Part shown: positions 33,818 through 61,531 of the stretch, piece after piece
Layout: the number at the start of each line of letters is the position of its first letter
Numbering within the stretch: the first letter of the stretch is position 1
The notes under the pieces: generated by a model
Databases searched by the model: none
The model's input: the letters and a program-made list of their open reading frames with translations, nothing else
Told to the model about the DNA's origin: nothing
Position numbers and translations under genes: made by a program
NCBI RefSeq assembly: GCF_001855555.1
Contig: NZ_MKCT01000001.1
Location: forward strand, 806,001 to 870,000
DNA: 64,000 bases
Source: Chromobacterium sphagni
GTDB taxonomy: Bacteria > Pseudomonadota > Gammaproteobacteria > Burkholderiales > Chromobacteriaceae
Reading direction: 5' to 3'

Positions 33818-34053
33818 ACCTCAGGGCGGGGCCGCGCCCCGCTCTTATCCACAACCGGCGTCGAACGCTGAACTTATCCACACCGCCTCCGTCCACACCG
33901 CGCCCGCCGAGTTCCGCTTCACCAAACCGCCTCCGCCGCGTCCATGCCCGGACGGTCGTCATCGGGAAATAATTGAAATGATTAAGTATTTCTTCGTAAC
34001 CGACCGGCAACTGCCCTACAACTAGAGCAGGATGTTTTGTACGGAGCGTCGCA

Positions 34054-49144: not shown

Positions 49145-49233
49145 AGCCGGTCGGCGGAAATTGGGCGGTGACAGCGGAAAACCGGCTTTGCTAGGATTAA
49201 ATCGCTACCGCCCATCTTCCCGACAAGGCCTGA

Positions 49234-51620: not shown

Positions 51621-51709
51621 TTTGTCTGTGCGAAGTACTCAAACCATCACGCGAAATCCATCTATCCACAGCCTGCCGTCCGGGAGCGCGTTTATCCACA
51701 ATCCCGCGC

Positions 51710-54380: not shown

Positions 54381-55040
54381 ATGGATTTCGAAAAAACCCG
54401 TTTCAACATGGTCGAACAGCAGATTCGTCCGTGGGAAGTTCTGGATCAGACCGTGCTGGATCTGCTGTTTCACGTGAAACGCGAAGACTTCGTGGCTGAC
54501 AACCAGCGCCAGATGGCCTTTGTCGATACCGAGCTGCCGCTGCCCAACGGCAGCAAGATGCTGCAGCCCAAGATGGAAGCCCGCCTGGCGCAGGACGCCG
54601 CCATCCAGCCCTCAGACAAGATTCTGGAAATCGGCACCGGCAGCGGCTACCTGACCGCGCTGCTGGCCAAACTCGGCAAGCATGTGGTGAGCGTGGAAAT
54701 CGATGCCGCGCAAAAAGAACGCGCCGCCGCCAATCTGAAGAAAGCCGGCATCCGCAATGTCAGCCTGGTGGAAGGCGACGGCGTGCTGGGCCTGCCGGAG
54801 CAGGCGCCGTTCGACGTGATCGTGGTCGGCGGTTCGCTGCCGGTAGTGCCGCAGGAACTGAAAGACCAGCTGGCCGTCGGCGGCCGCCTGATCATGGTGG
54901 CGGGCGACCTGCCGGTGATGAGCTGCAAGCTGATCCAGCGCGAAACCGAAACCAGCTTCCGCGAAACCGCGCTGTTCGAAACCTGTATCGAGCGGCTGAA
55001 AAAATTCGAGGCGGTGGAACCCGCCCGGTTCAGCTTCTGA
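54381..55040 (+). CDS. Pcm-like protein-L-isoaspartate methyltransferase family protein
   Basis: 219 residues, cytosolic. The AdoMet loop LEIGTGSGY is at residues 82-90 and KHVVSVEIDAAQKERA, with the acidic ribose contact, follows. RFNMVEQQIRPWEVLDQTVLDLLFHVKREDFV is the usual N-terminus of the short proteobacterial form found beside rhodanese genes. It may repair isoaspartate in damaged proteins; the family also has members without proven activity. The ATG at 54381 is preferred over an earlier Met. It overlaps the rhodanese gene by one base. Confidence 0.85.
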   Translation: MDFEKTRFNMVEQQIRPWEVLDQTVLDLLFHVKREDFVADNQRQMAFVDTELPLPNGSKMLQPKMEARLAQDAAIQPSDKILEIGTGSGYLTALLAKLGKHVVSVEIDAAQKERAAANLKKAGIRNVSLVEGDGVLGLPEQAPFDVIVVGGSLPVVPQELKDQLAVGGRLIMVAGDLPVMSCKLIQRETETSFRETALFETCIERLKKFEAVEPARFSF

Positions 55041-55366
55041 TGCTGCGCGAAATCCAGGCCCCCGAGCTGGCCGCCCGGCTGGCCGACGCCCAGGCGCCGG
55101 CCACGCTGTTGCTCGATGTGCGCGAAGAATGGGAATACCAGCTTGCCAGGATAGAAGGCAGCGTCCATATCCCGATGAACCTGATCCCGCTGCGGATGAG
55201 CGAGCTGCCGGACGACACCACCATCGTCGCCATCTGCCACCACGGCATGCGCAGCGCCCAGGTGGCGCTGTTCCTGCAGAACGCCGGCTTCGACGACGTG
55301 ATCAACCTCAAGGGCGGCATCGACGCCTGGTCCGCCCAAGTGGACCCTAAAGTCGCCCGCTACTGA
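55040..55366 (+). CDS. Rhodanese-like single-domain protein
   Basis: 108 residues. LLLDVREEWEYQLARIEGSVHIPMNLIP and VAICHHGMRSAQVALFLQNAGFDDV are the two halves of the rhodanese fold. Cys66 in the CHHGMRS loop is the sulfur-carrying residue. It starts on the last base of the upstream methyltransferase stop (TGATG). Ends in a strong terminator. Sulfur acceptor unknown. Confidence 0.9.
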   Translation: MLREIQAPELAARLADAQAPATLLLDVREEWEYQLARIEGSVHIPMNLIPLRMSELPDDTTIVAICHHGMRSAQVALFLQNAGFDDVINLKGGIDAWSAQVDPKVARY

Positions 55367-55387
55367 GCCCGGGCCAGCCCTGAGACG

Positions 55388-55410
55388 ACACCGCCCTCGG
55401 GCGGTGTTTT
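55388..55410 (+). terminator. Terminator of the methyltransferase-rhodanese operon
   Basis: ACACCGCCC and GGGCGGTGT form a nine-base stem with a two-base gap, followed by a short T-run, 21 bases after the rhodanese stop. Confidence 0.75.
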
Positions 55411-55481
55411 GCTTGGCGCGGCGCAGGAACGAATACCCGCGCCGACCGCTCCAACCCCGACGCCGTCACTTCAAGAAACCT

Positions 55482-56204
<723 letters not shown>

Positions 56205-59103: not shown

Positions 59104-59553
59104 TCACGCCGTACGCGGCAGATCGATCGCGAAAGTGATGCCGGTGTTTTTCTGCTGATAGCCGATATGGCGATAGAAGGCGTGCGCGTCCAGGCGCTGC
59201 TGTCCGGAACGCAGCCGGATCCGCGGATAGCCCCTTTCCTGCGCCCATTGCTCGCAGGCGGCCAGCAGCAGCCTGCCTATGCCCAATCCTTGGAAGGCCG
59301 GGTCCACTACGATGCCGCCGATTTCCACACAGGATTCGGCCTCAAGCAGATGGACGCCGTGGCCATGCGCCCAGCCGACCACCCGACTTTCGCGCTCCGC
59401 CACCCAGATCTCGTTGTCGGGAAAGGCGCGGATGGCGGCGTAGCGCCGCGCGACATCCTCTTCGCTGCTGGGATAGTCCAGATCGCCGCATAGCCGCGCC
59501 ACCTCGGCGATGTCGCTCTCCAGCATGGATCTGACCAAGGCTTGCATCGTCAT
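59104..59553 (-). CDS. GNAT family N-acetyltransferase
   Basis: 149 residues. ALVRSMLESDIAEVARLCGDLDYP opens the fold; CVEIGGIVVDPAFQGLGIGRLLLAACEQWAQERG (about 76-109) holds the acetyl-CoA loop. RLDAHAFYRHIGYQQ is the C-terminal segment. Substrate unknown. The start may be 59553 or the Met two codons later. It lies 54 bases upstream of the broken S66 gene on the same strand. Confidence 0.85.
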   Translation of the reverse strand: MTMQALVRSMLESDIAEVARLCGDLDYPSSEEDVARRYAAIRAFPDNEIWVAERESRVVGWAHGHGVHLLEAESCVEIGGIVVDPAFQGLGIGRLLLAACEQWAQERGYPRIRLRSGQQRLDAHAFYRHIGYQQKNTGITFAIDLPRTA

Positions 59554-60571
59554 CGATCATCAGGTGGGCAAAATTCCATTTTGCATCAGATGAAGTCGAA
59601 CAATCAAATGTCATTCAATGCCGGGCCGAAACATCTTGCCTGTCTTGCCCGGCGAGCAGTCCATCGCTTGAATACGCGGCGCTTTACCACTGCTGCCCAC
59701 GTCGTTGCCATGTTGAAACCAGCAGCCCGTTTGTCAGCGGCAAGTTGTCCGCTGTAATGACGGCACGGGTTTTTCCAGTGTGGAGAACCATTCATATCAT
59801 TGAAAATAAATGATAATTTTCGTTTTCCCCCTGCTTTGGATGCTTGGTTTCCGCTTGCCGGACTGTCTGGTTCCAGCAAGGCTTTCCTAAGGGAGAAGTG
59901 GATAACTTTGCATCGATAGGTTGAGGCTATGACCTTTGCCCTGCTTGGATGAACTGGTCCACAAGCCAATTCGCTTTTTTGCAAACTTCTGTTCTGCAGC
60001 GCTTCTGTTTGTCTTTTCCAGCTGTTTTTGCACGCTGCGCCGCTAAATATTTCCTGCCCGCTTCTTTTCTTAATATTCCCATTTTTATATTGAAGAAACT
60101 GGTAGAAGAGGGTCCTTGTCTGTGGGTAAGTACCTATAACCATTGTATTTCAATGGTTTGCTATAACTGGAAAGCTGTTGTCAGCCATGTTTGTTGCTGA
60201 CTGGCCAGTTGTGGATAAGTTTGAGTTTTTTCGTGGAAGCCTGGTTTTCCACATGTTGGCGGCCGCTATCGCTGCTTGCGCTGTGCACGGATTTTTTGCG
60301 CTCGGCCGATGTGGCCTCACCGTTGTTTCTTTAACGCAGCTATAAAATGATGATAATGCTGAAGGAGGGCTTTTTATGTGGATAATCGTCAAAAGACCAT
60401 ATTTTTCATGTGTTTGTCCTGTTGATAGCCATGGGATTATTGCAGCGCGCAAAGGTCTGGCAGATTGTGGATAAATCTGACTTCACTTATTCACAGTGGC
60501 TTATCCACATTTGCTGCGGAGGGATTTTACTTGGTTAACCACAGCCCCCCTCGGGTACAATGCGCGCCATG
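59554..60571. other. AT-rich gap with DnaA-box cluster: candidate replication origin
   Basis: No credible gene in 1018 bases of T-rich DNA. Perfect DnaA boxes (TGTGGATAA or its complement) lie at 60210, 60377, 60466 and 60501 within the gap and at 60612 in waaC. One-mismatch copies lie at 59897, 60121, 60245, 60487 and 60535. The stretch 60040-60100 is the most AT-rich and could be an unwinding element. In sampled blocks the plus strand is C-rich to the left and near-balanced to the right. Confidence 0.65.
60531..60561 (+). promoter_or_regulatory. Candidate promoter of waaC
   Basis: TACAAT at 60556-60561, followed by GCGCGCC, with a weak TTGGTT at 60531-60536 (19-base spacing). A start of transcription near 60568 would fall one to four bases before the likely start codon. 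Confidence 0.45.
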
Positions 60572-61531
60572 ATGAATGTGCTGATCGTGCGCACCTCGTC
60601 GATGGGCGACCTTATCCACACCTGGCCCGCCATCACCGAGCTGAAGACGCATTACCCCAATATCCGCTTGAGTTGGCTGGCCGAGGAAAGCTTCGCCGAC
60701 ATTGCCCGGCTGCATCCGCAAGTCGCCGAGGTGCTGACCCTGCGCTGGCGTAGCTGGCGCAAGCGTCTGCTGCGGCCTGCCGCTTGGCGCGAACTGAAAG
60801 CGCTGAAGCAACAGCTGCGCGACACCCACTTCGATCTGGTGCTGGACAGCCAAGGGCTGTTGAAAAGCGCCATTCCGGCGCGCTGGGCCGCTGCGCCGCT
60901 GGCCGGACTGGATTGGCACAGCGCGCGCGAATCGTTGGCCAGCCTGTTCTACGACAAGAAGCACACGGTGTCGCGCCAGTTGTCGGCGATAGAGCGCAAC
61001 CGCCGCCTGTTCGGCCTGAGCTTCGGCTATCAGCCGCAGGGCGAGCCGCAATTCGGCGTCAAGGCCGGCGCGAAACCGGCGTGGATGCTCAGCGGCCGTT
61101 ACGCGGTGCTGCTGCACGCGACCAGCCGCGTTTCCAAGGAGTGGCCGGAGGAGAGTTGGGTGGAGCTGGGAATCCGGCTGGCCAGCCAGCATGACCTGGT
61201 GACGGTGCTACCCTGGGGCAGCCTGCGCGAGAAAGCGCGCGCCGAGCGGCTGGCGGCCCGGCTGCCGGCCGCTGTGGTGGCGCCGAAGATGGATCTGCTG
61301 GAGGCTGCCGGCCTGCTGGGCCACGCCAGCGCGGTCATCGGCGTGGATACCGGGCTGGCCCATCTGGCCAACGCCTTGAACGTACCGCTGGTGGCCATCT
61401 ACACCGATACCGATCCGCAACAGACCGGGGTGGTGGAAACGCCTTGGGCGACCAATCTGGGCAATGTCGGGCAATGTCCGACGGTGGAAGCGGTATTGCA
61501 GGCGCTGTTTGCCCGCAGGGACTGGACATGA
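60572..61531 (+). CDS. waaC: ADP-heptose:LPS heptosyltransferase I
   Basis: 319 residues, GT9 family, inner face of the membrane; adds the first heptose to Kdo2-lipid A. MNVLIVRTSSMGDLIHTWPAI aligns with the WaaC N-terminus. LDSQGLLKSAI and the donor-site segment AVIGVDTGLAHLANALNVPLVAIYTDTDP near residues 250-280 are intact. I start at 60572 from the family's N-terminus; ATG codons at 60560 and 60569 are alternatives. No Shine-Dalgarno is seen, and the promoter lies so close that a leaderless mRNA is possible. It overlaps waaA by four bases. Confidence 0.92.
   Translation: MNVLIVRTSSMGDLIHTWPAITELKTHYPNIRLSWLAEESFADIARLHPQVAEVLTLRWRSWRKRLLRPAAWRELKALKQQLRDTHFDLVLDSQGLLKSAIPARWAAAPLAGLDWHSARESLASLFYDKKHTVSRQLSAIERNRRLFGLSFGYQPQGEPQFGVKAGAKPAWMLSGRYAVLLHATSRVSKEWPEESWVELGIRLASQHDLVTVLPWGSLREKARAERLAARLPAAVVAPKMDLLEAAGLLGHASAVIGVDTGLAHLANALNVPLVAIYTDTDPQQTGVVETPWATNLGNVGQCPTVEAVLQALFARRDWT

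Follow-up and report, generated by a model that had tools for sequence, protein, structure and literature searches.

A predicted chromosomal replication origin upstream of waaC in Chromobacterium, with two similar DnaA-box modules

The region upstream of waaC in a Chromobacterium species is almost certainly its chromosomal replication origin (oriC), with initiation predicted here from a unique cluster of DnaA boxes, a minimum of the GC skew, clustered parS-like sites, conservation across genera and the strand composition of a single-contig relative (G219). The locus lies in the window, by which we mean the whole 64-kb stretch analysed (C1:806001-870000, on contig C1 of a 4.74-Mb, 104-contig assembly), and these lines of evidence back an original prediction, made from the sequence alone, of a candidate origin between a GNAT gene and waaC. 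Coordinates are those of the window unless a contig is named.

Our box scan recovered the five perfect TTATCCACA copies of that prediction, the fifth of them within waaC, and, over 60040-60640, the one-mismatch copies that it had mentioned. The boxes, most of which fall into two modules described below, are as follows.

60121..60129, minus strand: DnaA box, first of module 1, TTACCCACA in the window; none of the 21 aligned sequences has more than one mismatch in it
60210..60218, minus strand: perfect DnaA box TTATCCACA, second of module 1 (box scan and module alignment)
60245..60253, plus strand: DnaA box, third of module 1, TTTTCCACA, separated by 35 bp from the second; again no sequence of the 21 has more than one mismatch
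60377..60385, minus strand: perfect DnaA box TTATCCACA, first of module 2 (box scan and module alignment)
60466..60474, minus strand: perfect DnaA box TTATCCACA, second of module 2 (box scan and module alignment)
60487..60495, plus strand: extra box of module 2, TTATTCACA, one mismatch (box scan)
60501..60509, plus strand: perfect DnaA box TTATCCACA, third of module 2, 35 bp from 60466 (box scan and module alignment)
60535..60543, plus strand: one-mismatch box TTAACCACA in the gap between module 2 and waaC, with TAACCACA largely conserved in the alignment
60612..60620, plus strand: perfect DnaA box TTATCCACA within waaC, requiring a rare CTT leucine codon (codon counts)

Such a density exceeds chance, as had been argued: the 64-kb window holds 11 TTATNCACA against 0.36 expected from shuffles and, genome-wide, five of the 41 TTATCCACA in 4.74 Mb fall within 411 bp here, while other 500-bp stretches of the assembly hold at most three among the matches listed. 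The next densest group has three in 218 bp (C1:891586-891803), and the Poisson probability of five boxes in one stretch is ~5e-15, before correction for the number of stretches. Elsewhere in the same genome, an inverted pair of perfect boxes 27 bp apart was observed at C72:42527 and 42554.

Strand composition changes at the same place. In 124 contiguous kb (C1:786001-910000), the cumulative GC skew, proposed at the outset as a check, reaches its minimum at window position 60080, inside the AT-rich element described below, and the G+T curve at 59728; the minima of the A/T and purine curves in these 124 kb lie away from the locus, at 49181 and 102551. Earlier hand counts had found C above G on the left and the two about equal on the right; per 10-kb block, the skew is -0.03 to -0.07 on the left and, moving away from the locus on the right, +0.04, +0.03, -0.003, 0.000 and +0.014, the last over 4 kb. 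Among sampled blocks of contig C1, skew was negative in 15 of 15 to the left of the locus and positive in 8 of 9 to the right. In G219, whose single contig comprises 4.75 Mb, it was positive in all nine stretches sampled between the conserved origin signature (at 236.8 kb; see below) and 2.41 Mb and negative in 10 of the 11 others, the exception lying at 20 kb, with the opposite switch between 2.41 and 2.80 Mb, about half-way round from the signature. At 20-kb resolution, the change of sign in Paludibacterium denitrificans coincides with the boxes (left, 11 of 11 negative; right, 7 of 9 positive), although the local GC minimum lies 8 kb to their right. Blocks of the wrong sign were all weak (-0.006 in L016 of the own genome, -0.006 and -0.014 in Paludibacterium, +0.004 in G219). 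Of the outcomes named in advance as refuting the prediction, two were checked, a GC-skew minimum elsewhere and a comparable density of perfect boxes at other places in the genome, and neither was seen.

A scan for parS-like palindromes with at most two mismatches, for which the control gave one site per strand, revealed seven, all at C1:754959-860466, 6-111 kb left of the boxes; one lies in the window.

54466..54481 (C1:860466-860481), strand not applicable: parS-like palindrome, one mismatch (palindrome scan)

As a separate observation, the sites found at this threshold sit solely to the left of the origin (7 of 7). The gene dnaA, noted earlier as not seen nearby, is indeed distant, at C1:1101763, 235 kb away (100 kb in Paludibacterium), such that the adjacency of a dnaA-linked origin is absent in both. 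It is very improbable that the origin nevertheless adjoins dnaA, as in many bacteria, and that the cluster beside waaC is a strong DnaA-titrating site alone: although E. coli and B. subtilis do have clusters of boxes away from the origin (passages of PMC5295017 and PMC5742627), the 5.5 kb around dnaA contain a single TTATCCACA without any one-mismatch copy, the sign of the skew turns at 0.866 Mb rather than 1.10 Mb, the parS-like sites lie left of 0.866 Mb and, in G219, the skew switch accompanies the signature. Hardly more credible is that the boxes make DnaA a transcription regulator of waaC without initiation here, which would fit a cluster directly upstream of waaC with one box inside the gene but leaves unexplained the skew minimum, the parS clustering and the conserved element 450 bp upstream. 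DnaA may regulate waaC alongside initiation.

The origin and its flanks are bordered by the following features.

59104..59553, minus strand: GNAT acetyltransferase gene, left neighbour (PF00583, E 7.4e-21)
59560..60039, no strand assigned: probable decayed glycosyltransferase remnant (weak protein match and conserved motifs)
60560..61531, plus strand: waaC, heptosyltransferase I, right border of the origin (TIGR02193, E 4.6e-120, above cut-off)

Models for AAC(6') matched the GNAT gene far below their cut-offs. The interval proposed initially, 59554..60620, does contain the origin, but its left limit has to be moved, the conserved origin extending over ~60045-60620 in the alignment of relatives. 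The left 0.4-0.5 kb of that interval is probably a decayed gene outside the origin proper. A glycosyltransferase match lies directly left of the origin in 18 of 20 relatives (in L034 from residue 57 on), and protein comparison gave none there in L022, L024 and the window; 59560-60040 of the window matches residues 18-61 of a relative's glycosyltransferase and retains GTGGATAACTTT and ATAGG. Because that match is weak (E 0.02), we grade the remnant no higher than probable. On the right, the leucine codon under the waaC box is CTT in 19 of 21 sequences, whereas CTT serves for 23 of the 788 remaining leucines in this set of genes and, since the WaaC protein has no need of a CTT codon, codon usage suggests that this box is probably under selection.

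The locus is conserved well beyond the species. WaaC of the window shares 85-89% identity with its counterparts in Chromobacterium subtsugae, sinusclupearum, amazonense, alticapitis, vaccinii and piscinae, which places the genome in Chromobacterium or very close to it. Using WaaC we found 21 loci, of which one without a box (L039, titled Rhodoplanes) was dropped, and the 20 kept (by title, 10 Chromobacterium, seven Aquitalea, two Paludibacterium and one Xenophilus) all have three to six TTATNCACA in the 600 bp upstream of waaC. In the alignment of these loci and the window, 21 sequences in all, no non-coding block is better conserved than the AT-rich stretch ending in GAAGAAACTGGTAGAAG and followed by a box. 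Each of the 19 genus genomes has a single copy of this signature (element, 12 bp, box). In an order-wide sample of 200 genomes, 179 had a WaaC match and the best 30 loci of these were examined: boxes were present upstream of waaC in 6 of 6 genomes of the own family and 3 of 3 of a second family, f51, and of the remaining 21 loci 18 were without a perfect box, L081 and L090 had one each and L074 had four. The f51 neighbours are a glycosyltransferase and waaC in L048 and L050, and in L049 waaC and a relative of window frame 55302-56201, which we take to be uracil-DNA glycosylase. The comparison with f51 suggests that the waaC-linked origin predates the split of the two families. Upstream of waaC in L048 (1490-1578), two minus-strand boxes face four plus-strand boxes in a symmetric array with 11-12 bp steps. 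The 35-bp inverted box pair was discarded as an order-wide search key: it matched 10 of 200 genomes and was unspecific, because four matched loci (L054-L057) were without waaC and carried that pair alone.

Within the conserved block the boxes follow one layout twice in 21 of 21 sequences, namely a minus-strand box, 88-90 bp, a minus-strand box, 35 bp and a plus-strand box, with a period of 245-259 bp (256 bp in the window) and with first-to-second spacings of 88-89 bp in module 1 and 89-90 bp in module 2. For every module box we took the closest match in the range searched, and at 126 of 126 positions (six boxes in 21 sequences) it has at most one mismatch. Each module also has an unwinding-like element ahead of its first box.

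60040..60108, plus strand: putative module 1 unwinding element, an AT-rich stretch and GAAGAAACTGGTAGAAG (60092-60108) (alignment, skew minimum, low stability)
60148..60160, plus strand: IHF-like site TTTCAATGGTTTG in the gap between the first and second boxes of module 1, one mismatch to what we take to be the IHF consensus
60344..60365, plus strand: putative module 2 copy of the unwinding element, AAAATGATGATAATGCTGAAGG (leave-one-out matrix)

The module 1 element is present with small variations in all 21 sequences. The compact AT stretch to which attention had been drawn was corroborated: once neighbours up to 60 bp away are discounted, 60061-60111 ranks sixth among the least stable 51-bp segments of the 64 kb. 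Among 63,950 segments ranked by computed duplex stability, 60045-60095 is number 152 and 60320-60370 number 1064; 60370-60420, spanning the first box of module 2, is among the 14 least stable. By computed stability, an AT-rich, easily opened element therefore lies beside the boxes, as expected of an oriC. In the IHF-like site, TTCA and a TT after it hardly vary among the aligned sequences.

Could the resemblance between the modules be fortuitous, boxes being frequent in any origin and module 1 the sole real unit? The module 2 element is degenerate, and comparison of the whole region with itself gave z ~2 at offsets 256-258, against up to 2.6 at unrelated offsets. Because self-comparison is weak, the case for duplication rests on the box spacings and on a leave-one-out matrix. 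The 88-90 and 35 bp spacings recur in both modules in every sequence, and the matrix, built from module 1 of other genomes, located the module 2 element at -215 to -217 (or -227) from waaC and ranked it in the top four of the stretch scanned for 17 of 21 sequences (outside the top four in L032, L033, L041 and L042). We consider chance unlikely and, in our judgement, the two-module duplication is probably a real structural feature. That both modules are capable of unwinding is a more speculative proposition, towards which we are somewhat sceptical.

Beyond the origin, direct pairs of DnaA boxes (hereafter twins) with a fixed spacing were found in this genome.

33845..33882, plus strand: perfect twin boxes with a spacing of 29 bp, ~30 bp past a likely gene end and 26 kb left of the origin
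51662..51700, plus strand: twin boxes 30 bp apart, 9 kb left of the origin, the first copy, CTATCCACA, with a mismatch
C1:550688, 624515, 890806 and 891766, and C61:134400: further twins of the same genome

Counterparts of the twin at 51662 exist as perfect pairs 8.5-10 kb left of waaC in L022, L023, L024 and L027. We surveyed direct TTATCCACA pairs with 12-42 bases between them (21-51 bp apart) and found a spacing of 29 or 30 bp in 153 of 153 pairs of the family. The genus sample contributed 114 of these, in 18 of 19 genomes (86 at 29 bp, 28 at 30 bp and none at any other distance), with 112 distinct spacers when the two classes are added and with same-place pairs in sister species not independent of one another. 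The family sample (41 genomes, eight shared with the genus sample; twins in 23 of the 41 and in 6 of 10 genera) added 39 from other genera, of which 17 are spaced 29 bp and 22 are spaced 30 bp. Outside the family, 18 pairs in 15 of 194 order genomes were spread over 21 to 51 bp, with one at 29. In six single-contig genomes (the first contig being about the whole genome), none of the 35 twins is farther than 776 kb from the origin and 15 are no more than 35 kb from it, with P ~6e-19 relative to uniform placement (genome sizes rounded). Moreover, 34 of 40 twins point towards the origin (those of the six genomes plus 5 of 6 own-genome pairs, the pair on C61 being unplaceable).

The twins are, then, origin-proximal boxes outside oriC, like datA and DnaA-box clusters, and their spacing and placement incline us to regard them as DnaA-binding timing elements. 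A competing view, which we hold to be possible though doubtful, is that they belong to a dispersed repeat or mark the ends of transcripts and take no part in replication: the six own-genome twins checked against open reading frames all lie outside them, beside a gene 3' end, and short hairpins were seen by eye in some, but spacers and flanks vary between copies, both ends are exact DnaA boxes and the proximity to the origin of 15 of the 35 would not be accounted for. Weak ATCC repeats in the spacers were set aside as functional candidates, the counts being too weak. None of the E. coli stretches compared, at the positions taken for datA and DARS, contained a 29/30-bp twin. DARS have a core of three boxes, of which I is oriented against II and III (a passage of PMC5742627), and assignment of the twins to this class was rejected: of the eight own-genome pairs with at most one mismatch seven were examined, and none of the seven has an opposite-strand box with at most one mismatch within ~300 bp.

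The arrangement suggests how initiation might proceed. DnaA would occupy the strong boxes of the two similar modules, 256 bp apart and in the same orientation. Starting at the first of the module 1 boxes, it would extend leftward over the trio-like, AT-rich element (60040-60108) and open it, probably with the aid of a bend in the gap between the first and second boxes; the helicase would be loaded at the opened module 1 element and forks would depart both ways. Module 2 would serve as an assembly platform and possibly as a second unwinding site; we assign it the former role because its unwinding element, despite the same layout, is weaker and less AT-rich. The twins around the origin would probably hold DnaA and so delay re-initiation, in the manner proposed for datA in E. 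coli and for the B. subtilis clusters. Going further, one may tentatively picture the Chromobacteriaceae oriC as a tandem double origin with two complete unwinding modules facing the same way, its firing set by a family-specific twin-box ruler, in which a DnaA complex of fixed length titrates or inactivates DnaA; that all of this holds jointly seems to us unlikely.

A search of open-licence papers turned up none that deals with this origin, with origins linked to waaC, with twin boxes or with double origins, and the present analysis places an origin for a genus for which no origin paper was found in that literature. The once-per-genome signature (trio-like element, 12 bp, box; 19 of 19) should help in orienting genome sequences. 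Whether a single origin can bear two unwinding sites is a question that the two-module layout puts to a natural test, and the twins, in which spacing is kept and spacer sequence is not, are a natural experiment on DnaA-box spacing away from the origin.

Among related bacteria, Laribacter hongkongensis, which was compared with C. violaceum, likewise has a predicted origin, an Ori-Finder prediction with eight boxes, the passages of PMC3135505 in question giving no analysis of position, modules or twins. As in E. coli, where the origin is away from dnaA (a passage of PMC8287927), the origin described here does not adjoin dnaA, and in both an AT-rich region lies left of a box reading TGTGGATAA. 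E. coli differs in that its minimal origin is a single unit, 245 bp long (passages of PMC5295017 and PMC5742627), compared with two modules 256 bp apart here, and 11 GATC, compared with none in 60040-60560. Because GATC is absent from that segment, Dam/SeqA-type sequestration looks unlikely at this origin. Two box clusters are also a property of bipartite origins such as that of H. pylori. In B. subtilis, another bipartite origin, dnaA lies between the two clusters (passages of PMC5295017 and PMC5742627), whereas here both are in one intergenic region, each with its own unwinding-like element. The BUS comprises a DnaA box, a spacer and DnaA-trios, with at least three trios within 16 bp of the box and a spacer peak at 10-13 bp (a passage of PMC8287927); the conserved element ending in TAGAAG, 12 bp from its box, falls within that peak. 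The published rule of at least three NAN in register is not followed in the window, which has two trios at each module, and a simplified version of it, the one used for our counts, was satisfied at module 1 in 10 and at module 2 in two of the 21 sequences, as well as at R1 of E. coli. Finally, the twins resemble datA of E. coli, which titrates or inactivates DnaA together with IHF (passages of PMC5295017 and PMC5742627), and the oriC-proximal clusters of B. subtilis and S. coelicolor in being boxes near yet outside the origin. For B. subtilis, PMC5295017 relates in one passage that removal of six clusters led to early initiation and in another that they have no significant role, whereas a passage of PMC5742627 describes them as repressors of untimely initiation. 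The Chromobacteriaceae differ from all of these in having many small pairs with a fixed spacing of 29/30 bp.
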